Assembly: GCF_025153525.1 (NCBI RefSeq)
Contig: NZ_JANZNR010000006.1
Location: 186,001-250,000 of the forward strand
Direction of reading: 5' to 3'
From: Psychroserpens sp. SPM9
Lineage (GTDB): Bacteria; Bacteroidota; Bacteroidia; Flavobacteriales; Flavobacteriaceae
Length of the DNA stretch: 64,000 nt
Made by a program: the position numbers and the translations under genes. A model generated the notes under the pieces. It saw nothing but the letters and a program-made list of their open reading frames with translations. It was not told the origin of the DNA and searched no databases. Below are positions 28,783 through 41,952 of the stretch, in pieces (position 1 is the first letter of the stretch; the number at the start of each line of letters is the position of its first letter).

Positions 28783-29578
28783 TTGGTAAGTCGTTTAACA
28801 AGGCTTTTGCTTTTTCATGATTGTCATAAGAATTAGAAATAATAGTATTTAAAACCTGTTTAGTCTCCTCAGTTTTTTCTTGTTTGAGATACAATAAGGC
28901 TTTATACCAATGGCCTTTTTCAGCATCAATTAAATCACTACTAATAAGTAAATTGAAAGTTTCTTCAGCACTTTTATATTGACTTAATTCCGTTTGAGAC
29001 AATCCTATATAAATATAGATAGAACCTTTTTCATTAGAGGCATTCAAACTTGTTTGAAATATATTCAAAGCTTCCTCGTAATGTTTATTTTTAAATAGTG
29101 TCTCGGCATTAGCCAGTTGTATCTCAGTATTATTACTTCTACTTACAAATGAGGGCAAGTTAGAATAATCTGAATATTCGCTGTACAATTCTTCCTGCGA
29201 TGTGCCAAAATTAAAGACAAATGAAATTCCTAAAAACAACATCAAACAAGCAGCTATAACATAGTAATAATATCTAGCATTTAATACTTTTACTTGCCCT
29301 TGAGACTTACTTATATTCTCGATGAGTCGTTTTGTTTGTTGTGCCTCATCACTTTTTATATAATCTTCTATTGCATTAAGATCTTCTGATTCTTTATTTT
29401 TAGCAAACAACCAATTACTTTCATCGAAGCTATCATTCATCTGGCTACTAATTTCCAGATAGTCTCTAAGTTCAATATTAGTTTTCAAATCATTCTCAAA
29501 AGCTAAAGTTTCCTCTTCATCAAGAGAACCATTGAGATAGTCTTCAACTTGTTTTATTTGACCTTCGGTTAGATTCAT
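28775..29578 (-). CDS. Membrane TPR protein, probable anti-sigma factor
   Basis: 267 residues. The N-terminal 90 residues (GQIKQVEDYLNGSLDEEETLAFENDL) have the look of a cytoplasmic anti-sigma domain. A single membrane helix follows (about residues 103-123), then a periplasmic TPR region (NAETLFKNKHYEEALNIFQ). It overlaps both neighbours by a few bases: ATGA with the sigma gene and 8 bp with the nuclease. This placement and topology fit a transmembrane anti-sigma factor sensing through TPRs. Direct evidence for sigma binding is lacking. Confidence 0.82.
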   Translation of the reverse strand: MNLTEGQIKQVEDYLNGSLDEEETLAFENDLKTNIELRDYLEISSQMNDSFDESNWLFAKNKESEDLNAIEDYIKSDEAQQTKRLIENISKSQGQVKVLNARYYYYVIAACLMLFLGISFVFNFGTSQEELYSEYSDYSNLPSFVSRSNNTEIQLANAETLFKNKHYEEALNIFQTSLNASNEKGSIYIYIGLSQTELSQYKSAEETFNLLISSDLIDAEKGHWYKALLYLKQEKTEETKQVLNTIISNSYDNHEKAKALLNDLPND

Positions 29579-30138
29579 ATACTTTTCAAATGGCTATATT
29601 TATTGTCAGATTTTATTAATTCTATAAGTTTGTTTTTGCATTTAAAAACTCTTTGTCTTACTACATTTTCAGAATTATACCCTAGTTTTTCAGCAATATC
29701 CTTATTAGGAATTTTATTAAAAAAACACTCCAGAATTTGTTTACAATTATCTGATATTAACTTAAGCTTATTTTGAAAAAACTCCCATCGTTCTTGCTCA
29801 AGTATGCTTAAAGCTAAATCGCGTTCTTCAGTTACATGTTCAAAAACATAATCATTTGTTACCTCTTTTTTCTTTTTATTTAATTCTCTTCGCCATAAAT
29901 TTTTACAGGATACAAATAAAAAGGCTTGAAACGATGACTTAATAGAAAAAGGTCTAGTTTTTGCGCGAACCATGATTTGCATTAAAGCTTTTTGAAAAAT
30001 ATCATCAGCATCTGTTCGCTGTCCTTTATTATTAGAAATAAAACTTAAGACTTGACGATAAGAACTTTTATAAATTTCTCTAACAATACGCTCGTCATTA
30101 TTAATAAGTCCGTTTAGGAAATAATTTGAGTCTTCCAT
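29575..30138 (-). CDS. ECF-type RNA polymerase sigma factor, Bacteroidota group
   Basis: 187 residues. Region 2 (YKSSYRQVLSFISNNKGQRTDADDIFQKALMQIMVR) and region 4 (LISDNCKQILECFFNKIPNKDIAEKLGYNSENVVRQRVFKCKNKL) are clear. It heads the sigma / TPR anti-sigma / nuclease operon and is divergent from the lipoprotein and CHAT genes, with only about 60-90 bp between them. It may therefore drive both sides, including the peptide-export cluster, which is inference. The start is the ATG at 30138. Confidence 0.93.
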   Translation of the reverse strand: MEDSNYFLNGLINNDERIVREIYKSSYRQVLSFISNNKGQRTDADDIFQKALMQIMVRAKTRPFSIKSSFQAFLFVSCKNLWRRELNKKKKEVTNDYVFEHVTEERDLALSILEQERWEFFQNKLKLISDNCKQILECFFNKIPNKDIAEKLGYNSENVVRQRVFKCKNKLIELIKSDNKYSHLKSI

Positions 30139-30226
30139 ATAGTTTTCGAGTAACTTAAAAATTTTCTTTTTTTATGGGTAACAAATATATATATTTATGA
30201 ACAGATGGCTAAAAACTATTAATATT

Positions 30227-30928
30227 ATGAAAACACAAACATTTAAATTATTTACCGTTTTAGCTTTGATGCTATCAATGAGCTGCTCTGTTGACAATCT
30301 TAATGAAGATTACGAAAATGAAATATTTGAAAAAGCGATTGATTTAGAAGTGCAAAAAGACTCAAAATCAGATAAAAATGAGTATAACCAACAACGTATG
30401 GGTAATCCAGCCCCAACTTACAACCCTAACTTAACTGAACTGTATCCAATTCCTAACGGAACGCACGTCGTTGGTATGTATATTGATATGGATTTTATAG
30501 AGTCTGGGTATCCTAACCCTTATACGGGTTCGTTTAATTTGCATTTTAGAAATGAAATGTTAACTCATTTTACTATTTATTCTATAGAAACTGCTGCAAG
30601 CGATGATTGTGGTAATATTGAATTGTGGATTATTAATGTTGAGGAATATAATGATTACATGATTACACAAGGAGGCACATTAATAGAAAACGACATTCAT
30701 ACTGGAGGTGGCAATACAAGTAATACTAATAGCGCAACACTTGGTAATGTTGATAAAGACAAAAAAGATCCTAATAATCCCGATCCAAACGATACAGACA
30801 ACCCAAACGACCCTGTAGAAACTGATCCTGATTTAGAACCAGAAATGGTAATAGAGCGTTTTTATATTTCACCTTTTGGACTGATAAGTTTGGTTGAAGG
30901 CTGTTTTGAATCTGAAATCATTGACTAA
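30227..30928 (+). CDS. Uncharacterised lipoprotein with Asp/Asn/Pro-rich stretch
   Basis: 233 residues from the ATG at 30227; an upstream ATG at 30197 would only put ten residues before the signal peptide. The signal MKTQTFKLFTVLALMLSMSC has a lipobox ending in SMSC. The mature part contains a YIDMDF...SFNLHFRNEMLTHF beta-like region and a low-complexity DPNNPDPNDTDNPNDP segment near residue 180. The family is unknown. It lies between the sigma factor and the CHAT gene and is cut off from CHAT by a terminator, leaving only 33 bp for any CHAT promoter. Confidence 0.78.
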   Translation: MKTQTFKLFTVLALMLSMSCSVDNLNEDYENEIFEKAIDLEVQKDSKSDKNEYNQQRMGNPAPTYNPNLTELYPIPNGTHVVGMYIDMDFIESGYPNPYTGSFNLHFRNEMLTHFTIYSIETAASDDCGNIELWIINVEEYNDYMITQGGTLIENDIHTGGGNTSNTNSATLGNVDKDKKDPNNPDPNDTDNPNDPVETDPDLEPEMVIERFYISPFGLISLVEGCFESEIID

Positions 30929-30931
30929 TAG

Positions 30932-30963
30932 AAAAGGGTAGTATTATAACTACCCTTTTTTTT
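30932..30963 (+). terminator. Terminator between lipoprotein and CHAT gene
   Basis: A 10-bp perfect stem (AAAAGGGTAG/CTACCCTTTT) with an 8-base loop and an 8-T run follows the lipoprotein stop by three bases. The next gene starts only 33 bp later, so partial read-through is a plausible control. Confidence 0.85.
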
Positions 30964-30996
30964 ACGCTTATATTCTCATTAAGATTTTTACGTAGC

Positions 30997-33744
30997 ATGA
31001 ACAAAAACATCATTCCATTTATTGTATTTTTTATTAGTCTTACCGTTTTTTCTCAAGAGCCCTCTCCTATCTTTAAAGACATCTTAGAAAGCGATTTATC
31101 TATACATGAAAAAAACCACAAATTTGATTCATTACTCCTTTCACATAAAAAAAATGATAAATTAGATCAGTTATTCATTGATCGCTATGAAATTTTAAAG
31201 TGGTACAAAAAACATAGAAACTTACAAAAAGCTATAATTCTTAATAAACAAAATATCCACCAAATGGATTCTGTTAATTATGATAATAATGCTATTTACC
31301 GAAAAAATTTATACAGTTTAGGGTTTTATGAAAGGCAAGATAACGCTATTGAAGATGCCACTTCGACACTTAAACGTTTATTGATTTATGATGAACCTGA
31401 TAAGTATGCAATATCAGGCGCCTTTTTGTTAGCCGAAATTTATTTCTTTTCCTATAATCAATACCACACTTCAAAAGAATATTTTGAGCTCAGTAAAGCC
31501 ATCGCAAAACGCCTAAAAAACAATACATTCATTGCTAGAAATGATGTTGGTATAGCTCAATCATGCAAGCTTATTAACACTAGTAAAAGTCTAAAACATG
31601 GTGAAGATTTATTATTATCGACACTAGAATTTGCGCATCGCGTAAATACTGATAATGATGATAAAAATGATATTCGAGAAGACATCATGCATTCCATCTA
31701 TAATCAACTAGGAAATATTTATATAGATAGACTCACCGGTCATGATTTTGTTAATGGAAAAATTTATTTAGAGAAAGCGCTTTCTATTGCTGAAAAATTA
31801 GAGAGCACTAAACTACTTACGAATACTTTAAATGATATGGGCGTTTTATATCTTAAAGAAAATAAAAAAGAAGCAGTTGATTATTTTGAAAGCGCATTAA
31901 GTTACAAGCCTAATAGTGTAATGAAATCTGTCATACATAGAAACTTAAGTATTCACTATTTATTTTTCAAAGATTATGATAAAGCGTTAGAACATGCACA
32001 AACTGCTATAGCAAAACTTGTTGATTTAGACACATCAAATGTTAATAATCTACCATCAAAATCAGACTTGAGCGATTCTAGTGTACAATTTCAGTTGATA
32101 TCAGCGCTCATTGATAAGGCGATGGTTTGGATTGAAATTGCAGAAAACACTTCAGATAATAAAAATTATATTGATCAAGCATTAAAGACTTTTGAGTTAG
32201 CCGATTTTCTTGTTGAAAAAGCTAGATTGGATAGCAAAGAATTTAAATCGAAGTTATTTTGGAGAAAGACTGCAGCCGAAATTTACACAAGTGCCACTAA
32301 GGCCAGTTTTTTAGCTAATAATCCTGAAAAAGCATTTTATTTTATTGAAAAAAATAAAGCGTTATTGTTACTAGAGGATGTTTCGCTTAAAATATCTCGG
32401 AAGAACTCGAGCATTCCAAAAGAAATTAGCAAACAAGACTCAATCTTTAAACATAAAATCACCAAACTTGAAACCCTTTTGGCCTCTAAAAAAACGGATT
32501 CCATTCAAAATTTACTATTATTAGCAAAAGATGATTATAATGAATTCATTAACGCTCTAAATCCTAATTACCGTCTCTATTTTAAAACTCACAAACCTGC
32601 TGAAGTTATAGATTTAAATACTTTCAAATCTACATTATTAGAAGATGGCAATGCCTATATTGAATATATCTTGAACAATGAAGAAGGTTACGGCATAGTC
32701 CTTACCAAAGATGCCACAGAATTATTTGAAATAAAAGATATCGAAAACCTTAAGAAGTCTACGCAGCTTTATAGAAACCTTATAGAACATCCATTTTTAG
32801 ACAAAGCTGCAATTGAAGATTATAATGTAGTTTCAAATACTATTTATAAAACATTATTTCCGGAGCATATTCAAACATTAATCAAAGGAAAAAAATTAAC
32901 CATTTTGGCCGATTCATATTTGCAGAACATTCCTTTTGAATCGCTCCAAACTTCAGTCACAGCAAAAAGCTATCTCATCTATAAACATGAAATAAGTTAT
33001 GCCTATTCGCTATCGTTTCTGAATGAAAACAATAAAATTAAAAGAGCGAATATTCATAATCTGGTGGGGTTTGCTCCTATTGAATTTTCGCAAGATTTGG
33101 TAGATTTACCTAATACTGAAGAAGAACTTAATTTAATACATGACTTATTTCGTTCAAAAATATTCTTAAGAAAAAAAGCCAGCAAAGAACGTTTTTTTAA
33201 AGATAGTAAAAACACTAAAATTATACATATTGCCTCTCATGCCGATGCTAATGATAGTATAAGTCCGTGGATTGCCTTTCACAATTCCAAAGTAGATTTA
33301 AAAGAACTTTATAGCTTTAATAACACTGCAAACTTAGTCGTATTAAGTGCTTGTAATACTTCACTTGGAGAGTTAAATAAAGGAGAAGGTGTTATGAGTT
33401 TATCGAGAAGTTTTTTCAATACAGGAGCGCACAGCGTATTACCAACACTTTGGGAGGTTAACGATAAAGCATCTGTAGAATTATTACGTTCGTTTTATTC
33501 AAATCTAGAAGAAGGACAAAACAAATCATTGGCACTACATAACGCCAAATTAACGTACTTAGAGTCTAATTCATTAAGCCAATCTTCCCCATATTATTGG
33601 TCGTCATTTATTCTTATTGGCGATACCGGACTCATTGAATTTAACAATAGCTGGCCAACATATTACTACTTTATTTTTATAGCTATGGTATTAATAATCA
33701 CAACCATAATACTGCGAATAAAAAAAATTAAACTTTTAGGGTAA
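30997..33744 (+). CDS. Exported TPR-CHAT caspase-like protein with C-terminal membrane anchor
   Basis: 915 residues. A signal peptide (1-20, ending VFSQ), TPR repeats (about 100-450), a helical linker (450-530) and a C-terminal CHAT domain (about 600-880) are followed by one membrane helix (886-908) and a basic tail. The predicted catalytic dyad is His748 in HIASHADAND and Cys786 in VVLSACNTSLGE. This places the CHAT peptidase on the periplasmic side. CHAT proteins are caspase-like cysteine peptidases; the substrate here is unknown. The next gene starts 9 bp downstream, so it is linked to the disulfide and export genes. Confidence 0.92.
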   Translation: MNKNIIPFIVFFISLTVFSQEPSPIFKDILESDLSIHEKNHKFDSLLLSHKKNDKLDQLFIDRYEILKWYKKHRNLQKAIILNKQNIHQMDSVNYDNNAIYRKNLYSLGFYERQDNAIEDATSTLKRLLIYDEPDKYAISGAFLLAEIYFFSYNQYHTSKEYFELSKAIAKRLKNNTFIARNDVGIAQSCKLINTSKSLKHGEDLLLSTLEFAHRVNTDNDDKNDIREDIMHSIYNQLGNIYIDRLTGHDFVNGKIYLEKALSIAEKLESTKLLTNTLNDMGVLYLKENKKEAVDYFESALSYKPNSVMKSVIHRNLSIHYLFFKDYDKALEHAQTAIAKLVDLDTSNVNNLPSKSDLSDSSVQFQLISALIDKAMVWIEIAENTSDNKNYIDQALKTFELADFLVEKARLDSKEFKSKLFWRKTAAEIYTSATKASFLANNPEKAFYFIEKNKALLLLEDVSLKISRKNSSIPKEISKQDSIFKHKITKLETLLASKKTDSIQNLLLLAKDDYNEFINALNPNYRLYFKTHKPAEVIDLNTFKSTLLEDGNAYIEYILNNEEGYGIVLTKDATELFEIKDIENLKKSTQLYRNLIEHPFLDKAAIEDYNVVSNTIYKTLFPEHIQTLIKGKKLTILADSYLQNIPFESLQTSVTAKSYLIYKHEISYAYSLSFLNENNKIKRANIHNLVGFAPIEFSQDLVDLPNTEEELNLIHDLFRSKIFLRKKASKERFFKDSKNTKIIHIASHADANDSISPWIAFHNSKVDLKELYSFNNTANLVVLSACNTSLGELNKGEGVMSLSRSFFNTGAHSVLPTLWEVNDKASVELLRSFYSNLEEGQNKSLALHNAKLTYLESNSLSQSSPYYWSSFILIGDTGLIEFNNSWPTYYYFIFIAMVLIITTIILRIKKIKLLG

Positions 33745-33753
33745 CAAAACTTA

Positions 33754-35403
33754 TTGCGAAGGAACAGTAGAGAAACATTAAATCTCGAAACTGTGAAAGA
33801 CGCATTAAGTTACTTAGTTCAGCAATTATTAAAAAAAAATAAAATAAATGTCGATTTTGATGAATTAGCATTTCAAATACAAAGTCACCCCACCTACCCA
33901 AGTCTTCATGCTATTACAGGAGTATTAGACCATTTTAATATTGAAAATTTAGCGATTGATGTTCCAAAAACAAATGAAGTAGTTCAACAATTACCTAATA
34001 CCTTTTTAGCTCAAATAGACATTGACTCCCAAAAACAATTCGCTATTGTCACGAAGCTAAAAGATCGTTTGAAATTGATTTTGAACTCAAAAGACAAAAA
34101 AGTTCTTTCTCAATCAGAATTCTTAAATCAGTTTACAGGTATTGTATTAGCTGTTGACAAAGAAGATACTCAACTAAATACACCTACATCTCATGTAAAA
34201 TCAATTGTAGTAAAAAGCGCCTTTGTTCTTTCTATACTATTAATTGGCTTTTTGTTTTTAAAAACGAATCCCAACCTTATAAGTACATTATTTTTCCTAC
34301 TGTCTCTAATAGGACTTTATGTAACCACCAACATTATTAAACAAGAGCGAGGAGAAGTGTCTGTACTTGGTGATGCTTTTTGTGCTACTGTTACCGAAAA
34401 AAAGAATTGTAATGCTGTCTTATCCTCTAAAGGAGCAACAATAATAAAAGATGTAAAACTAAGCGATTTGAGTCTTATTTATTTTACAGCTTTAGCGCTA
34501 TCAACATTCTTACTAAGCCTTAACAACAACACGATTTTTATTCCGAAACTAATCGGTTTACTTGCTTTACCGATAACACTATTCTCATTGTATTACCAAG
34601 TTGCAGTTATAAAAAAATGGTGCTATTTATGTCTTGCAATAGTCGGCATAATCTGGATACAAGCTGGGCTTTCGTTAACTCACTTCACACCAAATTATGA
34701 GCTAACGAGTATACTTATAACAAGCCTTTCATTTACAAGTATTACTGCCTTTTGGTTACTAGAATCACAAACCCGCAAAGACAACAAATCACTTCAACAA
34801 ACAAAAGTTTCTTACTTTAAATTTAAAAGAAATTTTGAAATATTCTCTGATCAATTACTCAAATCTAAAGTGATTGACACTCACATAAATGATCTTTCAG
34901 AAATTGTATTTGGTAATCCAAAAAGTAATTTAAACATTACTATTATAACCAACCCATTATGTGGCCATTGTAAACAGGTACACACACTCCTTGAACAGAT
35001 TATACATCGCTATCCACAATCTGCTAAATTAACCGTAAGGTTTAATATTAATCCCAAAGACCCTGAAGCTATTACCACTAAAATTACATCTCGCCTTTTA
35101 GAAATTTACAATAATGATGGTGAACTAACGTGCTTGAAAGCTATGCACGACATTTATGGAGATTTCTCAACCGAAGCATGGTTAACAAAATGGCACCAAT
35201 GTACCGAACCTCAAACCTATATCTCCATTTTACAAGAAGAATACTCTTGGTGTATGAAGCATGCTATCAACTTCACACCAGAATTATTAATAAATGGTCA
35301 GTCTTATCCTAAAGCCTTTGATCGCGATGACCTTATCTATTTTATTGAGGACTTACAAGAACAATTAGAAAACACAGAGCAGCATTCAATGCTAAAAATA
35401 TAA
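33754..35403 (+). CDS. VKOR-thioredoxin fusion with C39-like N-terminal domain
   Basis: 549 residues from a TTG at 33754 (a GTG at 33793 is the alternative). Residues 1-130 look like a C39 peptidase fold (HPTYPSLHAITGVLDHFNIE) but contain no cysteine, so a substrate-binding role is likely. Five membrane helices (about 147-345) form a VKOR domain with Cys210/Cys219 and the CxxC Cys290-Cys293 (KKWCYLC). The C-terminal thioredoxin fold has CGHC at 403-406. VKOR proteins oxidise thioredoxin partners using quinone to make disulfides. It sits next to genes for six-cysteine peptides and probably folds them. Confidence 0.9.
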   Translation: MRRNSRETLNLETVKDALSYLVQQLLKKNKINVDFDELAFQIQSHPTYPSLHAITGVLDHFNIENLAIDVPKTNEVVQQLPNTFLAQIDIDSQKQFAIVTKLKDRLKLILNSKDKKVLSQSEFLNQFTGIVLAVDKEDTQLNTPTSHVKSIVVKSAFVLSILLIGFLFLKTNPNLISTLFFLLSLIGLYVTTNIIKQERGEVSVLGDAFCATVTEKKNCNAVLSSKGATIIKDVKLSDLSLIYFTALALSTFLLSLNNNTIFIPKLIGLLALPITLFSLYYQVAVIKKWCYLCLAIVGIIWIQAGLSLTHFTPNYELTSILITSLSFTSITAFWLLESQTRKDNKSLQQTKVSYFKFKRNFEIFSDQLLKSKVIDTHINDLSEIVFGNPKSNLNITIITNPLCGHCKQVHTLLEQIIHRYPQSAKLTVRFNINPKDPEAITTKITSRLLEIYNNDGELTCLKAMHDIYGDFSTEAWLTKWHQCTEPQTYISILQEEYSWCMKHAINFTPELLINGQSYPKAFDRDDLIYFIEDLQEQLENTEQHSMLKI

Positions 35404-35410
35404 TAACAAA

Positions 35411-35426
35411 GCCCTTAAAAAAGGGC
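35411..35426 (+). terminator. Hairpin after VKOR gene
   Basis: The 6-bp stem GCCCTT/AAGGGC with a 4-base A loop lies seven bases after the VKOR stop. The T run behind it is weak (CTTGTATTG), so it may be an attenuator or a processing hairpin rather than a full terminator. Confidence 0.5.
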
Positions 35427-35444
35427 CTTGTATTGAACATTATT

Positions 35445-35466
35445 CTCTCGCGAAGAATAGACACAA
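35445..35466 (+). repeat. Truncated copy of the 49-base element, before the exporter
   Basis: The first 22 bases (CTCTCGCG...AGACACAA) match the left half of the three full copies with one change (AAG instead of AGG). The right half is unrelated. A 10-bp stem (ATTGAACATT with AATGTTCGAT, one G-T pair) encloses it. It lies about 65 bp upstream of the exporter start. Confidence 0.7.
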
Positions 35467-35531
35467 CTAAAGCTGAGCCAAATGTTCGATGCAAATATAA
35501 TTTTAAATAATTACAACAAAAAAGGACTTAA

Positions 35532-37721
35532 TTGAAACGGAAATTTCCAACATATAAACAAACAGAAGCCAAAGATTGTGGTCCAACATGTATTAAAATT
35601 ATTGCTAAGTATTACGGCAAAACCATAAATACTCAAGAGCTTAGACAATTAAGCGAAACCACTCGTCAAGGCAGTAGTTTAATGGGTTTGAGTGATGCCG
35701 CAGAGTCGATAGGATTTCGCTCTTTGGGTATTAAATTGGCTTTTAAAAAACTAAGGGAAGCACCGCTTCCTTGTATTCTACATTGGAATAATGATCACTA
35801 TGTTGTGCTCTATAAAATCAAAAATGATACTATTTACATTTCTGATCCTGCTCACGGACATATAACTTACACTAAGCAAGAATTCATAAAACATTGGATT
35901 GGAGCTAATGCAAATGAACATACTGAAGAAGGCATCGCCTTAATGATAGAACCCACTCCAAACTTTTATCAATCAGAATTTGATGATGACGAGAAGTTTG
36001 GTTTCAGTTTTATTTTTAAATATTTATTTAAATACAAGAAGTTTATAATTCAGTTGATTATTGGTTTACTTGCTGGAAGTCTCCTACAGCTCGTGTTACC
36101 ATTCCTTACACAAAGCATTGTAGATATTGGGATTCAAAATCAAGACCTTAATTTCATTTACTTAATCCTATTTGCTCAATTAGCCCTTTTTGTTGGTAAA
36201 GCTTCTCTCGAAATCATTAGAAGTTGGATTTTATTACATCTAAGCACACGAATTAATATCTCATTAATATCTGATTTCTTTATCAAATTAATGAAACTTC
36301 CCATCGCTTATTTCGATGTACGAATGACCGGAGATTTATTGCAACGTATTAATGATCACAAACGTATTGAACGCATCCTAACAACCTCATCGTTAACCAT
36401 ATTGTTTTCATTTTTCAACCTTATTATTTTCAGTTTTGTTCTCGCCTATTATAGCCTACAAATATTTGGCGTCTTCTTATTGGGTAGCATTTTATATATC
36501 ATCTGGGTGCTATTCTTTTTCAAAAAACGTAAAGAGCTGGATTATAAACGCTTTTCTCAGGTAAGTGAAGAACAAAGTAAAGTTATTGAGCTTGTCAACG
36601 GTATGCAGGAAATTAAACTGCATAATGCTGAACGTCGCATGCGCTGGAACTGGGAGTATGTTCAGGCAAAATTATTCAAAATCGCATCAAAAAGTTTAGC
36701 CTTAGAACAAACTCAAAGTGTTGGTTCCAGTTTGATAAATGAACTGAAAAATATGTTCATTACTATTTTATCAGCAACCTTAGTTGTTGAGGGTGATATT
36801 ACTTTAGGGATGATGATGGCGATTAGTTACATGGTAGGGCAACTCAATGGGCCAATTATGCAACTTATCAACTTTATGAGAGAAGTTCAAGATGCAAAGA
36901 TTTCGATTGAACGTTTGGGTGAAATTCATAATATGGAAGATGAAGAAAAACCTGAAGATCACAAAATCACAAGAATTCCAGATCAAGCCGATTTAAAACT
37001 CAATAATGTCTCATTTCGTTATGTTGGTGGTTTAGATCCCGTAATAAAAAACTTGTCACTTATTATACCAGCAAACAAAACAACTGCAATAGTTGGCACA
37101 AGTGGAAGTGGCAAAACCACTTTAATGAAACTGCTGTTGCGTTTTTATGAGATAGATCAAGGCGATATCCATATTGGGAACTTTAACCTCAATAACATCT
37201 CTCAACGTGCATGGAGAGCTAATTGTGGAGTCGTCATGCAAGAGGGCTATATTTTTAATGACACCATCGCCAATAATATTGCTGTAGGAGAAGATTACAT
37301 CGATATTGACCGCTTAAAACATGCTATTGATGTGGCTAATATTTCAGATTATATAGAGCAATTACCCTTAAGCTACAATACAAAAATTGGTGGTGAAGGT
37401 ATAGGGCTTAGTACAGGGCAAAAACAACGCTTACTTATAGCGAGATCTGTTTATAAGAATCCTAAATTTCTATTCTTTGATGAAGCCACCTCAGCATTAG
37501 ATGCTAACAACGAAAAAGTGATTATGGAAAAACTAAATGCATTTTTTAAAGACAAAACAGCTGTGGTCATAGCCCATCGTTTAAGTACCGTAAAAAACGC
37601 TCATCAAATTGTAGTGCTAGAACAAGGAAAAATTGTAGAAGTAGGAAACCATCAACAATTGATAAAAAATAAAGGCAATTACTATAACCTAGTTAAAAAC
37701 CAATTAGAACTGGGCAATTAA
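35532..37721 (+). CDS. C39-peptidase-containing ABC transporter (double-glycine peptide exporter)
   Basis: 729 residues. An N-terminal C39 peptidase has Gln10, Cys16 (DCGPTC), His89 and Asp105, so it is catalytically complete. A six-helix ABC membrane domain (about 165-440) and an ATPase domain follow, with Walker A GTSGSGKTT (522-530), signature LSTGQKQR and Walker B FLFFDEATSALD. PCAT exporters cut leaders after Gly-Gly and export the core peptide. The start is TTG at 35532, with AAAGGA six bases upstream, a rare recognisable ribosome binding site here. Three substrates with GG leaders are encoded next to it. Confidence 0.97.
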   Translation: MKRKFPTYKQTEAKDCGPTCIKIIAKYYGKTINTQELRQLSETTRQGSSLMGLSDAAESIGFRSLGIKLAFKKLREAPLPCILHWNNDHYVVLYKIKNDTIYISDPAHGHITYTKQEFIKHWIGANANEHTEEGIALMIEPTPNFYQSEFDDDEKFGFSFIFKYLFKYKKFIIQLIIGLLAGSLLQLVLPFLTQSIVDIGIQNQDLNFIYLILFAQLALFVGKASLEIIRSWILLHLSTRINISLISDFFIKLMKLPIAYFDVRMTGDLLQRINDHKRIERILTTSSLTILFSFFNLIIFSFVLAYYSLQIFGVFLLGSILYIIWVLFFFKKRKELDYKRFSQVSEEQSKVIELVNGMQEIKLHNAERRMRWNWEYVQAKLFKIASKSLALEQTQSVGSSLINELKNMFITILSATLVVEGDITLGMMMAISYMVGQLNGPIMQLINFMREVQDAKISIERLGEIHNMEDEEKPEDHKITRIPDQADLKLNNVSFRYVGGLDPVIKNLSLIIPANKTTAIVGTSGSGKTTLMKLLLRFYEIDQGDIHIGNFNLNNISQRAWRANCGVVMQEGYIFNDTIANNIAVGEDYIDIDRLKHAIDVANISDYIEQLPLSYNTKIGGEGIGLSTGQKQRLLIARSVYKNPKFLFFDEATSALDANNEKVIMEKLNAFFKDKTAVVIAHRLSTVKNAHQIVVLEQGKIVEVGNHQQLIKNKGNYYNLVKNQLELGN

Positions 37722-37727
37722 AATATT

Positions 37728-37776
37728 CTCTCGCGAGGAATAGACACAACCCTTGGGTGTCTTTAAATGACCAAGG
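37728..37776 (+). repeat. 49-base element copy 1, possible H-type pseudoknot
   Basis: Starts 7 bp after the exporter stop. Stem 1 is AGACAC (37742-37747) with GTGTCT (37757-37762). Stem 2 is CCTTGG (37751-37756) with CCAAGG (37771-37776). The loop of stem 1 contains the 5' arm of stem 2, so both together form a pseudoknot. It also carries the palindrome CTCGCGAG at the left end. There are 28 bases to the start codon of peptide 1. Confidence 0.8.
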
Positions 37777-37804
37777 TTTTTAACAATTATTAAATAATTT
37801 AATT

Positions 37805-38074
37805 ATGAAAAATTTATTAAATCTAGGAAAAACATTAAACAAATTTGAACAAAAAGAAATTTTTGGAGGACATAAACTAACCCATTACGATCCTAATTGT
37901 GATGATACCGAAGGTTATGTGAGTCCTGGTTGTGCATGCTTTGCAGATTCTCAATGTGCTAATATGCAAAATCCAGATCATAATCAAGGACCTTTTGATC
38001 CTACAGGAGGACCAAATCAAAATGGCTCAGTATTCGTGCAAGGGTCTTGCATAAATGGTGGTTGCGTTGCCTAA
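37805..38074 (+). CDS. Double-glycine leader peptide 1, six cysteines
   Basis: 89 residues. The leader MKNLLNLGKTLNKFEQKEIF ends in Gly21-Gly22, the cleavage site expected for the adjacent C39 exporter. The 67-residue core has six cysteines, many Asp/Asn/Gly/Pro and no long hydrophobic stretch. This is the GG-leader 'bacteriocin-like' precursor type of Bacteroidota. The core has no recognisable family. Three disulfides are likely, given the VKOR-thioredoxin gene upstream. Bactericidal activity is not shown; a signalling or adhesion role is equally open. Confidence 0.88.
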   Translation: MKNLLNLGKTLNKFEQKEIFGGHKLTHYDPNCDDTEGYVSPGCACFADSQCANMQNPDHNQGPFDPTGGPNQNGSVFVQGSCINGGCVA

Positions 38075-38083
38075 TCAAAAGTA

Positions 38084-38120
38084 ATAATCAAGAGGTTGTT
38101 ATCAGCAATCTCTTGATTAT
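38084..38120 (+). terminator. Strong hairpin between peptide 1 and HlyD gene
   Basis: A 15-bp stem (one G-T pair) with a 7-base loop lies ten bases after the peptide 1 stop. It is followed by CTATTCTTTAG, not by a clear T run. It probably stabilises or partly ends the peptide transcript while letting some read through to the adaptor gene. Confidence 0.65.
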
Positions 38121-38165
38121 CTATTCTTTAGAAAAAGAAATAATTTTAATAGAACAACAATCGCA

Positions 38166-39458
38166 ATGGAGACAAATGATAAACATATAGAACTCAGAAG
38201 CGAGCACATTCAAGAGCTCTTAGAAGCTGTTCCAAACTGGATGATTCGCTATGGCAACCTTCTAATATTAATATTTATTTTGATGTTTTTAATGCTATCC
38301 TATTTTATAAAGTATCCTGATATTATAAGCGCTGAAGCTCAAATTACAACCAAGCTTCCACCACAAAAAAAATATGCTCAAATAACTGGTAAGTTAGATT
38401 CGATATTTGTTAGCGATAATAAAAATCTAAAAAAGAACACAAGCATTGCCGTACTTGAGAACACAGCAAATTTCGAACATGTACAATTGCTCAAATCAAT
38501 AGTAGATACGATAAAACTTAATAACAATAATTTTTCTTTCCCTATTGATGAACTTCCTGTTCTATTTCTTGGTACTATAGATTCTGAATATGCCCTTTTT
38601 GAAAACAGCTATATCCAATACCAATTAAACAAAGAATTACAACCTTTTTCTAATGAATTTCGAGCTAATCAGATGTCTACATCCCAATTGTATTCCAGAT
38701 TAAAAACTTTGGAAGCTCAAAAACGTATAAATGCCTCTGAACTTGCCTATCAAAAGAAAGACTTAGAACGACAACAACAATTATTTAACAAAGGGGTCAT
38801 TGCCAAACAAACGCTTGAATCGAAAGAACTCACCTACCTCCAAGCCGAACGGAATTACGCCAATATGGATGCTTCTATTTCTCAAATTCACGAGGCCATA
38901 GGAAATGCTAAAACTAATAAAGTAAGCACATCAATTAAAAAAACAAAAGAAGAAATCAGCCTTCTAAAAACAGTAATTCAATCCTTTAATCAGCTGAAAA
39001 GAGCACTCAAAGATTGGGAAATGACTTATTTAATAACTTCAGATATTGACGGACAAGTAGCTTATGCAAAACTGTGGACAAAAAATCAAACTGTAAATCA
39101 AGGTGATTTAGTATTTACTATTATTCCTGAGCAAAACTCATCCTATATCGCCAAATTGAGGACGCCAGCTCAAAACTCTGGTAAAATTAAAACAGGACAA
39201 ACCGTCAACATTAAACTTGAAAATTATCCTGACAATGAATTTGGAACACTCAAAGGTAAAATAGAATCCATTTCGCTTCTTACTGATGAAGATGGGTTTT
39301 ATTTAATAACCGTTAGACTTCCTTCTAAACTCATTACTTCTTATAACAAAGAAATTTCATTTAGACATGAAATGCGTGGACAGGCAGAAATAATTACTGA
39401 AGACTTAAGATTGATTGAACGCTTCTTTTACCAATTAAAAAATGTATTTAACAATTAA
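38166..39458 (+). CDS. HlyD-family secretion adaptor
   Basis: 430 residues. A short cytoplasmic N-terminus, one membrane helix (about residues 32-52), a lipoyl-like half (YAQITGKLDSIFV), a coiled-coil hairpin (about 170-280, SRLKTLEAQKRI...KDLERQQQLFNKGV) and the second lipoyl/barrel half (ITSDIDGQVAYAKLW) form the usual periplasmic adaptor. It links the inner-membrane exporter to an outer-membrane TolC-like channel, which is not encoded here. It lies between peptide genes 1 and 2. Confidence 0.93.
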   Translation: METNDKHIELRSEHIQELLEAVPNWMIRYGNLLILIFILMFLMLSYFIKYPDIISAEAQITTKLPPQKKYAQITGKLDSIFVSDNKNLKKNTSIAVLENTANFEHVQLLKSIVDTIKLNNNNFSFPIDELPVLFLGTIDSEYALFENSYIQYQLNKELQPFSNEFRANQMSTSQLYSRLKTLEAQKRINASELAYQKKDLERQQQLFNKGVIAKQTLESKELTYLQAERNYANMDASISQIHEAIGNAKTNKVSTSIKKTKEEISLLKTVIQSFNQLKRALKDWEMTYLITSDIDGQVAYAKLWTKNQTVNQGDLVFTIIPEQNSSYIAKLRTPAQNSGKIKTGQTVNIKLENYPDNEFGTLKGKIESISLLTDEDGFYLITVRLPSKLITSYNKEISFRHEMRGQAEIITEDLRLIERFFYQLKNVFNN

Positions 39459-39463
39459 AAAAT

Positions 39464-39512
39464 CTCTCGCGAGGAATAGACATAACCCTTGGATGTCTAT
39501 AAATGACCAAGG
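39464..39512 (+). repeat. 49-base element copy 2, possible H-type pseudoknot
   Basis: Starts 6 bp after the HlyD stop and differs from copy 1 at three of 49 bases. Stem 1 is AGACAT (39478-39483) with ATGTCT (39493-39498): a C-G pair of copy 1 is here T-A, a compensatory change. The stem can extend to 8 bp. Stem 2 is unchanged (39487-39492 with 39507-39512). There are 28 bases to the start codon. Confidence 0.8.
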
Positions 39513-39540
39513 TTAATTTAATTTTTTAAATATTTTAATT

Positions 39541-39762
39541 ATGAAAAATTTATTAAATCTCGGAACAGCTTTAAACAAAGCTGAACAGAAAGTTGTATTT
39601 GGCGGAAACCCTCCAAATCGTTTAAAACATGAAGGGGATGATGGTGGTTGCTCTTATGAACATCGTGATGTATGCACTAATGGAACTCCATGTGATCCGT
39701 TTGACCCTGACTCGTGTGGTGTTATGAGTGCTGGATGCGGTCATTGGGTTATGGTTTGTTAA
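39541..39762 (+). CDS. Double-glycine leader peptide 2, six cysteines
   Basis: 73 residues. The leader MKNLLNLGTALNKAEQKVVF plus GG (residues 21-22) is nearly the same as in peptides 1 and 3. The 51-residue core is unrelated in sequence and has six cysteines, the last one being the final residue, and a DPFDPDSCG turn-like stretch. It is followed by a strong terminator. It is expected to be cut and exported by the C39 transporter and oxidised by the VKOR protein. Confidence 0.88.
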   Translation: MKNLLNLGTALNKAEQKVVFGGNPPNRLKHEGDDGGCSYEHRDVCTNGTPCDPFDPDSCGVMSAGCGHWVMVC

Positions 39763-39785
39763 TTTTTAATTAACAACTAGCAATT

Positions 39786-39834
39786 ATAGGTCGTCATTGG
39801 TAAATGGCGACCTATTTAAGATGCTATTTTTTTT
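39786..39834 (+). terminator. Terminator after peptide 2
   Basis: A 13-bp stem (ATAGGTCGTCATT with AATGGCGACCTAT, one T-G pair) and GGTA loop at 39786-39815. It is followed within about ten bases by a nine-T run. This is one of the clearest terminators in the window. Confidence 0.88.
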
Positions 39835-39917
39835 TAAAACTGATTTATAAAAATTTATGGATACAAAACTATTAATTCTATCCTTATATGATAAGAAGAA
39901 AATATTTCTAAAAAAAT

Positions 39918-39966
39918 CTCTCGCGAGGAATAGACATAATCCTTGGGTGTCTAAAAATGACCAAGG
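39918..39966 (+). repeat. 49-base element copy 3, possible H-type pseudoknot
   Basis: Stem 1 is AGACAT (39932-39937) with GTGTCT (39947-39952), a T-G wobble at the pair that varies in copies 1 and 2. Stem 2 is 39941-39946 with 39961-39966. It lies 27 bases before the peptide 3 start and after a terminator, so here it must work from its own transcript or as DNA. Confidence 0.8.
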
Positions 39967-39993
39967 CTAATTTAATTTTTAAATAGTTTAATT

Positions 39994-40206
39994 ATGAAAA
40001 ATTTATTAAATCTCGGAACAGCTTTAAACAGAGCTGAGCAAAAATCTATTTTAGGTGGAACTCCAATAAGACACGCTTGTGACGATGTCCCAGGTGACCA
40101 ATGCTGTTACACAAATTTAGTACATATAACTCCTTGCCCATTCGGTGGAGCAAGTGATTCAGGCTGTTGGGTAGAGGAAACCGTTTGTACAGGTGGGCTT
40201 AATTAA
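39994..40206 (+). CDS. Double-glycine leader peptide 3, six cysteines
   Basis: 70 residues. The leader MKNLLNLGTALNRAEQKSIL plus GG is followed by a 48-residue core with six cysteines, two of them adjacent (DQCC), and a tail ending CTGGLN. Leader identity with peptide 2 is about 18 of 22 while the cores differ, the usual sign of cassette-like diversification. It lies behind the third full element and before a bidirectional hairpin. Confidence 0.88.
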   Translation: MKNLLNLGTALNRAEQKSILGGTPIRHACDDVPGDQCCYTNLVHITPCPFGGASDSGCWVEETVCTGGLN

Positions 40207-40233
40207 ACACCCTATATCATAATTCCATTTTAT

Positions 40234-40261
40234 AAAGCTGTCTTTTTTAAGAGGCAGCTTT
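40234..40261. terminator. Hairpin between peptide 3 and pafA
   Basis: AAAGCTG pairs with CAGCTTT, with an inner TCTT/AAGA stretch and a T loop. It lies between the convergent peptide 3 and phosphatase genes. Confidence 0.65.
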
Positions 40262-40263
40262 AT

Positions 40264-41952
40264 TTAATCCATCACATAGCCCAATGGTTGTCCTGTGGCA
40301 GCATTAGGAAAACTAATCCCTAACAAAGCAGAAATCGTTGGCGCAATATCAGGGATTACTGTTTTTTGATAAGTCTCACCGTGAGTAATACCCTTTCCGA
40401 AGAATAACAAGGGCACATGTGTATCATAATTTAAGCCGCTCCCATGCGTCGACCCTGTTTTTCCGTAAGAAATATAAGCAGGATCTGCTACCAAAATAAT
40501 ATCTCCGGATCGCTTTTGGTTGTATCCATTTTGCAATAAAGATTCTATCCCATTTGTAAAATTGGAAGTGGTCATCGTATGTGCTGAAAATACTTTTTCA
40601 ACATGCGTATAAGTAATCAATTCATTTACAATAGATTCTTGAACCATATTGATATTTAAACCTATACTGTCAATATAAGTTCTATTTAAGAAAATTTGAT
40701 CATTGCTAATATTTTCAATCAAATCTGAAGACTTAAATTTTGCATTTAAATAATCGGTAAAACGTGTTCTTGTCTCTGTATTATTTAAATATCCTGAAGG
40801 GATTTTCATACTTTGTAAAAATGCAGGTACTTCAACGGCTCCATGATCGGCTGTAAGAAATACCGTATAATTTCCTGTACCTACCTGAGTATCTAAAAAC
40901 TGAAAAAAACGCTCTAAATCTTTATCTAATCTTATATAAGTGTCTTCAATTTCTTTAGAACTTACTCCAAAATTATGTCCAACATAATCGGTTGCCGAAA
41001 AACTTACAGCTAAAACATCAGTAATAGCATCTTGTCCTAAAGCTTCTCCTTTTATAGCTTCCATTGCAAAATCTACGGTTAAACTATTACCATAAGGTGT
41101 TGCCTTGAGTATATCAAATCCTCTGTTCTCATCTTTTAATGCGGCTAAATCATAAGGAAATGTCGCTTTTTCTTTTCCTTTGAATCCGCCTTCAAAAGCA
41201 TTCTCATCTGGTCCACTTTCAGTATAGGTCGAAATATCATAATAGGTATCCCAAGTTTTGAAATATGATTCTGCTGCTTTAGATGTATTAAAATTTGACA
41301 CCCATGTTGGTAATTCATTCATATAAAATGTACTGGAAATCCAAACACCTTCATCTCTTCCGTGAAACCAATACGCCGCATTTGCTGTGTGTCCTGCAGG
41401 TAGAATTGCACCTCTGTCTTTTAAAGAAATCCCTATTGTTTTACCTTGCATTTGTGTAAACAATCTGTTTTCGTCACTAAATGTAGTGGTCTTCATACGG
41501 TTTGGAGACATTTTTCCGGCATCATCAGTCGTTCCAACAGATAATACATTATCATCCTGAGCACAATACACCATCGTTTGTATCTCTTTATCATACCAAT
41601 TGTTGCCAATAATCCCATGGTATTTTGGTGTGGTTCCTGTGTACACAGAAGCGTGTCCCGGACCAGTATAAGTAGGCACATAATTGAAATGATTGTTTTT
41701 ACAATTAAAGCCTTCGTTAATCATGCGTTTAAATCCGCCATCTCCATATTTCGCATAAAACCGTGTGAGGTAATCGTATCGCATTTGATCGACTACAATT
41801 CCAACGACCAGTTTAGGTGCATCTTGATCATAACTATTTGTTTGACCTTTAGATGTAAAATCTTCTGTTTCAGATACTGCAACCTTTTTTTGAGATTGAC
41901 AAGACATCATAAAAGCGAATGTAAAAATTAGGAAGAGACTCTGTTTTATCAT
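40264..41952 (-). CDS. pafA: PafA-type alkaline phosphatase lipoprotein
   Basis: 562 residues. The signal peptide MIKQSLFLIFTFAFMMSCQS ends in a lipobox (MMSC), so it is probably a lipoprotein. The metal and nucleophile sites fit the calcium-stimulated PafA family: VVDQMRYDYL, Thr nucleophile in YTGPGHASVYTG, the Lys/Arg of KDRGAILPAG, SATDYVGHNFG and TADHGAVEVP. These enzymes hydrolyse phosphate monoesters outside the cytoplasm to supply phosphate. It is convergent with the peptide cluster and probably unrelated to it. Confidence 0.94.
   Translation of the reverse strand: MIKQSLFLIFTFAFMMSCQSQKKVAVSETEDFTSKGQTNSYDQDAPKLVVGIVVDQMRYDYLTRFYAKYGDGGFKRMINEGFNCKNNHFNYVPTYTGPGHASVYTGTTPKYHGIIGNNWYDKEIQTMVYCAQDDNVLSVGTTDDAGKMSPNRMKTTTFSDENRLFTQMQGKTIGISLKDRGAILPAGHTANAAYWFHGRDEGVWISSTFYMNELPTWVSNFNTSKAAESYFKTWDTYYDISTYTESGPDENAFEGGFKGKEKATFPYDLAALKDENRGFDILKATPYGNSLTVDFAMEAIKGEALGQDAITDVLAVSFSATDYVGHNFGVSSKEIEDTYIRLDKDLERFFQFLDTQVGTGNYTVFLTADHGAVEVPAFLQSMKIPSGYLNNTETRTRFTDYLNAKFKSSDLIENISNDQIFLNRTYIDSIGLNINMVQESIVNELITYTHVEKVFSAHTMTTSNFTNGIESLLQNGYNQKRSGDIILVADPAYISYGKTGSTHGSGLNYDTHVPLLFFGKGITHGETYQKTVIPDIAPTISALLGISFPNAATGQPLGYVMD

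Follow-up and report, generated by a model that had tools for sequence, protein, structure and literature searches.

We analyzed a stretch of 64,000 nucleotides of the Psychroserpens sp. SPM9 genome (Flavobacteriaceae; contig NZ_JANZNR010000006.1, positions 186,001 to 250,000), further called the window, in which a 49-nucleotide (nt) element stands in front of each of three genes encoding peptides with a double-glycine (GG) leader. Comparison with relatives in other genomes shows that the element is a cis-acting structured RNA, which in most copies ends 26-29 nt upstream of the ATG, typically that of a GG-leader peptide gene. On the evidence of the alignments its core is an interleaved two-helix H-type pseudoknot, supported by compensatory changes in which the sequence changed while the fold was kept. 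Judging by analogy, we give a probability of about 0.4 to the reading that this knot docks the 30S ribosomal subunit, probably via bS1, and so replaces Shine-Dalgarno pairing.

The three copies were found on the plus strand at 37728-37776, 39464-39512 and 39918-39966. All are 49 nt long and differ pairwise at 3, 4 and 3 positions. Both stems, AGACAY/RTGTCT (stem 1) and CCTTGG/CCAAGG (stem 2), were paired at 6 of 6 positions in every copy, with linker lengths of 3, 0 and 8 nt. The last pair of stem 1 varied, being C-G, T-A and T-G in copies 1, 2 and 3, and the element ended 28, 28 and 27 nt before the ATG. An initial annotation of this DNA had described the copies in the same way, and its coordinates, differences, stems, linkers, variable pair and distances all proved exact. 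Copy 1 comprises a 5' hairpin (P0; 37725..37741, with a lower stem, a bulged U and a palindromic CTCGCGAG apex according to folding and alignment), the pseudoknot (37742..37776; stem 1 37742-37747/37757-37762, stem 2 37751-37756/37771-37776, loop 1 of 3 nt, loop 3 of 8 nt) and an A/U-rich linker of 28 nt to the start codon (37777..37804). The corresponding parts of copy 2 are a weaker P0 (39461..39477), the pseudoknot (39478..39512) and a 28-nt linker (39513..39540), and those of copy 3 are a likewise weaker P0 (39915..39931), the pseudoknot (39932..39966) and a 27-nt linker (39967..39993). A 47-nt consensus with up to 3 mismatches matched exactly three times in the window and in 0 of 100 dinucleotide shuffles. 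With up to 3 mismatches allowed, the conserved 5' half of the element matched nowhere in the entire genome outside these three copies.

We searched for relatives with two covariance models. The first one, R1, was built from the three window copies and included stem 1 as its only structure, while the second one, R2, included the hairpin and stem 2 and left stem 1 out. R1 matched (E <= 0.01) in at least 30 of 299 genomes of the same family, the genome of origin included, at no fewer than 88 places and with up to at least 20 places per genome; these counts are lower bounds, as the searches score at most 14-20 candidates per genome (20 in the R1 family scan). R1 gave 99 hits across 62 sources and R2 gave 157 hits across 94 partly overlapping sources. 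After removal of duplicates there were 144 distinct places, of which 135 kept both stems, defined as no more than 2 unpaired positions in total with small spacing shifts tolerated. The exact 6-3-6-0-8 architecture was present in 109 of the 135. Nine places were excluded: the decayed copies and the hits in very small genomes (three each), one copy clipped at the end of its locus, L029, and L094, a real-looking copy dropped by the sequence filter of the script (L and G numbers are our labels for loci and genomes).

Among named genomes, a pattern scan identified the element in two Psychroserpens and in one Winogradskyella flava. R2 matched in at least 12 of 395 genomes of the phylum, all from the family of the window organism. 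Over 395 genomes of the order at least 22 matched, 6 of these outside the family; one hit in family f7 and two in f5 look real, and three in very small f16 genomes look chance-like. A pattern of stem 1 and loop 3 matched in 12 of the 395 genomes of the phylum. Six of these 12 lie outside the family, and in them no more than 4 of 6 stem-2 pairs were formed; the reversed control of this pattern matched about equally often. In some genomes, for example G059, several units of element and peptide gene stand in a row.

The 35-nt core consists of a 6-bp stem 1, a 3-nt A-rich loop 1, a 6-bp stem 2, no loop 2 and an 8-nt loop 3 (consensus UUAAAUGU). Stem 2 occurred as CCTTGA/TCAAGG, CTGTGA/TCACAG, TTGTGA/TCACAG, TCGTGA/TCACGG, CTTCAA/TTGAAG, TCAAGA/TCTTGA, CTGTAC/GTACAG, CTATGA/TCATAG and others, all of them paired. 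The variants of stem 1 were AGACAC/GTGTCT, GGACAC/GTGTCC, TGGCAT/ATGCCA, GGACCG/CGGTCC, AGACTC/GAGTCT, AGACAG/CTGTCT and AGTCAT/ATGACT. We aligned 78 sequences selected to have 5 or 6 of 6 pairs in each stem and fixed spacing; changes on both sides were seen at 16 of 18 pairs (5' hairpin included). Double-change cells numbered 200, as compared with 71.5 in shuffles and 13-39 in slid controls, and the share of paired cells in stems 1 and 2 was partly fixed by the choice of these sequences.

Therefore, we also used a set in whose choice stem-2 pairing played no part, namely those 64 of the 99 R1 hits whose length was exactly 49 nt (59 distinct). All 59 sequences had 5 or 6 of 6 stem-2 pairs, formed with 12 different left arms. 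Covariation was assessed with a test of our own rather than R-scape, using a G statistic with product correction. For the null, the observed number of changes of each column was placed randomly on a FastTree tree of the same short sequences; with 60 nulls the E-values are coarse. Four of 1711 column pairs were significant (E < 0.05), two in stem 1 and two in stem 2. The 105 distinct standard copies again gave four significant pairs, two in each stem. The remaining eight knot pairs and all hairpin pairs were individually not significant against this null. The initial annotation had proposed the H-type pseudoknot and had named a lack of covariation in a larger alignment as evidence against it. 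Both stems covaried above the tree-based null, and that objection is thus answered.

The same result decides on another explanation, according to which the element is a non-functional repeat whose three recent copies spread together with the peptide gene. The window copies are indeed 92-94% identical to each other, and the first codons of their peptide genes are similar too. Covariation refutes this reading, which we consider practically discounted: compensatory changes are seen across genera, the exact architecture is widely kept, and one copy (L178, from genome G288) was recovered solely through the leader codons of its peptide.

Some positions of the knot were close to invariant in the 105 copies. 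These were G+2 and C+4 of stem 1 (about 100%), A+7 of loop 1 (99%) and A+24, A+25 and G+28 of loop 3 (98-100%), in contrast to stem 2, which covaries freely. This pattern fits a switch, in which a dedicated RNA-binding protein or a small ligand would read the surface formed by stem 1, loop 1 and loop 3 and turn the peptide regulon on or off together. The presence of many copies per genome before different peptide genes, and of a few before lipoprotein-like genes, is also regulon-like. Against a switch, stem 2 does not overlap the start region, the helices stack without a loop 2 and leave no evident pocket, no Rfam family matches, and no terminator or alternative pairing was seen (no systematic search was made). 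We regard this explanation as possible, though rather unlikely.

The knot is often preceded by the weaker hairpin P0 (about 37725-37741 and equivalents). The standard apical pairs of the hairpin were present in 79 of 135 copies, and in 66 of these 79 the loop tetramer was its own reverse complement (CGCG 56, GCGC 5, TGCA 4, CATG 1). Palindromic hairpin loops of the types CTCGCGAG, TTCGCGAA, CTTGCAAG and TGCGCA were observed in the 24 nt before stem 1 in most copies, e.g. at 37730-37737 of the window. A self-pairing (kissing) loop is possible on this pattern. All six hairpin pairs showed double changes in the 78 sequences, none significantly against the tree null, and P0 is likely a genuine helix. 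The pairs of the loop palindrome ranked just under the knot pairs without reaching significance (E 0.17 and 0.30; 105 copies). In 40 of 135 copies no hairpin of at least 1 kcal/mol was found at the P0 site, which identifies the knot as the core of the element.

The initial annotation had also considered the left-end palindrome as a DNA site. The palindrome itself is real and over-represented: 82 of 135 copies contain a perfect palindrome of at least 8 bp within the 26 nt that precede stem 1, as compared with about 14% of shuffles and with 16 of 135 for a control stretch. The palindrome and the inverted repeats could then form an operator, a part of a promoter or a single-strand recombination site, and the units standing in a row in genomes such as G059 also speak for a DNA element. 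The operator reading fits poorly, because the palindrome sits in the loop of an asymmetric hairpin with an offset bulge and because its sequence differs within one genome; G059 alone carries CTCGCGAG, TTCGCGAA, CTTGCAAG and TCGCGCGA. Further, the interleaved stems covary as a single strand would, orientation and distance to the gene are fixed, and TAnnTTTG, the consensus of the Bacteroidota -7 box, occurs in 0 of 127 linkers. A DNA element seems to us highly improbable.

An ATG-started open reading frame (ORF) of at least 25 codons followed 130 copies. Measured from the end of stem 2, its ATG lay at 28 nt in 43 of these copies, at 26-29 nt in 101 and at 22-31 nt in 124. The other 5 of 135 copies had no such ORF; mostly, what follows them looks like a broken peptide gene. 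Intact or near-intact elements were also seen before peptide genes that appear broken by an early stop codon, a frame shift or a lost ATG (L054:1427, L023, L061:1563, L067:1625). The spacing to the stop codon of a long open frame upstream was free (-15 to 247 nt). The linker had a G+C content of about 10%. Distinct 28-nt linkers were on average 51% identical, as compared with 73% for the knots preceding them, so the length of the linker is better kept than its sequence. In 125 copies the start context was A-3 in 90%, A-12 in 87% and A-11 in 83%. Adenines at -3 and at -12/-13 are reported as positive determinants of initiation in Flavobacterium johnsoniae, a member of this phylum without Shine-Dalgarno sequences (PMC6847099, available part). 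Upstream ORFs starting at an AUG within loop 3 were considered and rejected, as the frames were distributed 42/25/23 among 90 copies with no conserved frame evident; the excess of one frame follows from the 28-nt distance.

The element is very probably contained in the transcribed RNA, because copy 1 begins 6 nt past the stop codon of the exporter gene, copy 2 begins 5 nt past that of the adaptor gene, and the linkers hold no -7 box. The exact box was present 10 times over 135 copies in the 140 nt upstream of stem 1, with no peak, so no start site could be placed.

We asked which genes follow the element. A peptide of up to 120 aa with GG in residues 15-40 followed 115 of 135 copies, and 5 more had GA or GS there; shuffling these glycine-rich peptides yields sequences that satisfy the GG rule in 29% of cases. 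Among the remaining 15, four were leader-like by eye (L047:3201, L049, L058:1471, L095) and five had no ORF. Lipoprotein-like, secreted or membrane-protein genes, classified by eye, followed five copies (L036:2922 on the minus strand, L065:1671, L081:916, L082:1501, L117:2248), as if the regulon were wider. The copy at L060:3476 had no clear gene behind it. Inspection by eye, without a family search, revealed no ribosomal protein among the 20 downstream cases lacking GG. Several leader types follow the element, such as MKNLxxLG, MLKNILxLEG and MKKLSLKNLxL.

The association was also found starting from the peptides. A search of the 299 family genomes with leader codons only gave 28 matches, and 24 of the 27 listed encoded GG leaders. 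The knot was present by the strict rule at 18-34 nt in 22 of these 24; the exceptions were L179, whose knot forms 10 of 12 pairs, and L118, which retains only stem-2-like arms. In a wider leader search of ten genomes picked for carrying the element (33 matches, 30 fetched), 24 of 26 GG leaders, one of them a broken gene, had the element, and L118 and L129 lacked it. Seven genes without GG were caught by the two leader patterns, and one of them (L177) passed the knot rule with a low-scoring unrelated sequence.

Upstream of the element, 35 of 135 copies had a strong stem-loop (-10 kcal/mol or lower) between -70 and -22, as compared with 11 of 135 for a control stretch taken upstream, and only 2 of the 35 were followed by a T run. 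A stable stem-loop stands a few bases before GAACAATATTC and the element, for example at about 1045-1093 of L052, and also ahead of copies in L041, L014, L025 and L067. It is possible that the upstream stem-loop is a 3' protector or a processing junction.

The window also holds a decayed fourth element (35404..35493, plus strand; R1 E 0.032, R2 E 4e-4, and alignment with Psychroserpens and Winogradskyella flava). It lies between the VKOR-like gene and the start of the exporter gene, and no peptide gene follows it. The upstream stem-loop is kept, P0 is fully kept and both knot stems are lost. Two Psychroserpens genomes share this state. The decayed elements that precede the ABC exporter without a peptide gene are the one in the window and those at L034:1225-1353 and L036 6785-6945 (minus strand). 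At the same place Winogradskyella flava has an intact element with its peptide, followed by two more units and a phosphatase-like gene, with no exporter. As read from these alignments, the knot is decayed where the peptide gene is absent, and the hairpin and stem-loop are retained.

That the hairpin and stem-loop outlast the peptide would agree with a role in processing and stability. In such a case the message would be cut just before the 5' hairpin, the hairpin and knot would shield the 5' end of the short peptide mRNA, the upstream stem-loop would shield the 3' end of the transporter mRNA, and more peptide than exporter would be made. The excess of strong stem-loops with few T runs also speaks for it, and in 103 of 135 copies an open frame on the same strand, counted from stop to stop and at least 60 codons long, ends no more than 250 nt away (counted without a chance control). 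The mRNA of tisB likewise needs cleavage for activity (PMC7708055, available part). Protection of a 5' end, however, does not need a fixed 28-nt distance to the ATG. Further, 100 of 135 copies have no strong stem-loop, a few stem-loops resemble plain terminators (L090, L114), and some copies have a promoter-like box just upstream (L058:2314, TACATTTG). We find it doubtful that processing is the main role of the element.

The element was compared with known leader RNAs. A small H-type knot in the 5' leader is also a feature of the preQ1-I, SAM-II and SAM-V riboswitches, and in translational riboswitches of the preQ1-I type the 3' strand of the knot overlaps the ribosome-binding region. The element differs from them, as its 3' arm lies outside that region (the knot mostly ends 26-29 nt before the ATG), its genes encode exported peptides and not metabolite enzymes or transporters, and it has no Rfam match. 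A closer likeness is offered by the available part of PMC7708055, in which S1 binds H-type pseudoknots tightly and a knot at the 5' end of the E. coli tisB +42 mRNA, a standby element backed by compensatory mutations, is needed for S1 and 30S binding and for translation. There too an H-type knot adjoins an unstructured stretch in the leader of a small-protein gene, and in our element a knot and a region predicted to be single-stranded likewise stand upstream of the start. The dimensions differ (stem 1 of 9, stem 2 of 5 and loops of 0, 2 and 3 in tisB, against 6/3/6/0/8 here). In tisB, a single gene, the knot works at a distance of about 100 nt from a ribosome-binding site that is sequestered (PMC7708055, available part), whereas the flavobacterial element is separated by 28 nt from a start region for which no sequestration is predicted (mean unpaired probability 0.63 at -20..+9, pseudoknot not modelled) and stands before dozens of genes in a phylum without Shine-Dalgarno sequences. 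The rpsO and S1-SELEX knots are also H-type and bound by S1, and binding to rpsO docks the mRNA on the 30S platform (as cited in the available part of PMC7708055). The likeness to rpsO is by description, without sequence or structure comparison, and rpsO is a ribosomal-protein gene, unlike the GG-peptide genes behind our element.

The element apparently represents a new, undescribed family among cis-acting leader RNAs, since it had no match in Rfam 15 where searched and no description in the literature. At gathering score, Rfam 15 matched the window only with Flavo-1 (RF01705; 8631-8705, plus strand, 51.3 bits, E 3.7e-08), away from the element sites. When 37600-40300 was searched permissively against Rfam, the 4 hits looked chance-like and all lay off the elements, and none of 12 loci with diverse copies matched Rfam 15. 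No description was found in open PMC full-text literature, judging by titles and abstract openings. Flavo-1 is described as a structured RNA with an unclear function in Flavobacteriaceae (PMC9723704, available part). In that source, the section on 5' RNAs of F. psychrophilum names no such peptide gene; its Table S7 with 64 leaders was not compared.

Three things make docking of the 30S subunit by the knot our best single guess: the AUG lies at a fixed distance, the linker is rich in A and U and carries the adenines described above, and tisB sets a precedent. Given the size of the 30S footprint on a message, the pseudoknot would lie just outside it, and the linker with A at -3 and -12 would connect it to the AUG. 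Docking, probably through bS1, would substitute for the Shine-Dalgarno sequence and serve peptides needed in large excess over the exporter encoded in the same operon. If a regulator masked or melted the knot, peptide translation could be switched off. A separate module of operon junctions, perhaps for RNA processing, may be formed by the 5' hairpin together with the stem-loop that precedes it in roughly a quarter of the copies. A broader picture, which we offer as tentative, is a portable pseudoknot, used chiefly with exported GG peptides, that would recruit 30S subunits at a set distance from the start codon and whose self-complementary hairpin loops could pair the copies of one polycistronic message with each other.

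Several points weigh against docking. Generic bS1 binding should not require a sequence nearly as conserved as that of stem 1, and the strong conservation of stem 1 and loop 3 favours a factor more specific than bS1 (a protein or a ligand) or tertiary contacts. An AUG lies within loop 3 in 90 of 127 copies, which is odd for a pure enhancer, and the openness of the start region is moderate only. An A-3/A-12 context is found throughout the phylum rather than at these genes in particular, and the constant spacer could partly come from common descent of the cassette. One of the five copies before genes without GG sits 54 nt away. GG genes without an intact element exist (L118, L129, and L179 with its incomplete pairing), and the decayed copy may be a single evolutionary event. 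As to the reality of the element itself, the three window copies alone are statistically not compelling, and the real support comes from relatives elsewhere. Single-sequence folding of element and linker gave z = -0.23, -1.04 and -1.03 with a different fold for each copy; the program cannot form pseudoknots, so the knot is invisible to it.

The genes around the element form an operon on the plus strand, in the order VKOR/thioredoxin-like protein, C39-peptidase ABC exporter, peptide 1, HlyD adaptor, peptides 2 and 3. The first gene (33754..35403) encodes a VKOR/thioredoxin-like/C39-like protein (Pfam VKOR, Thioredoxin_4, Peptidase_C39). The second (35532..37721) encodes an ABC exporter with a C39 peptidase, predicted to process GG leaders and export the peptides (Pfam Peptidase_C39, ABC_membrane, ABC_tran); its NCBIfam relatives score below their cut-offs. 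The exporter adaptor of the HlyD type (Pfam HlyD_3) lies at 38166..39458. According to the ORF list, peptide 1 has 89 aa (MKNLLNLG...FGG; 37805..38074), peptide 2 has 73 aa (39541..39762) and peptide 3 has 70 aa (39994..40206). GG stands at residues 21-22 of peptide 1 and likewise near there in peptides 2 and 3, and none of them matched NCBIfam or Pfam (E <= 0.001 for peptide 1). The window operon thus combines GG leaders with a C39 ABC exporter and an adaptor nearby, as in operons of C39-processed peptides. Just upstream of it (29575-33744), a minus-strand gene for an ECF-type sigma factor is divergent from an unassigned 243-codon ORF and a gene for a TPR-CHAT protein.

In summary, the element is a well-supported conserved RNA family tied to a class of exported peptides, and it can mark genes that family models may miss. 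Its fixed spacing to the start codon is a testable handle on start-site choice and boosting in Shine-Dalgarno-free bacteria. If the docking reading is true, the element would be a bacterial ribosome-recruitment module in Flavobacteria, whose ribosomes do not use Shine-Dalgarno pairing.

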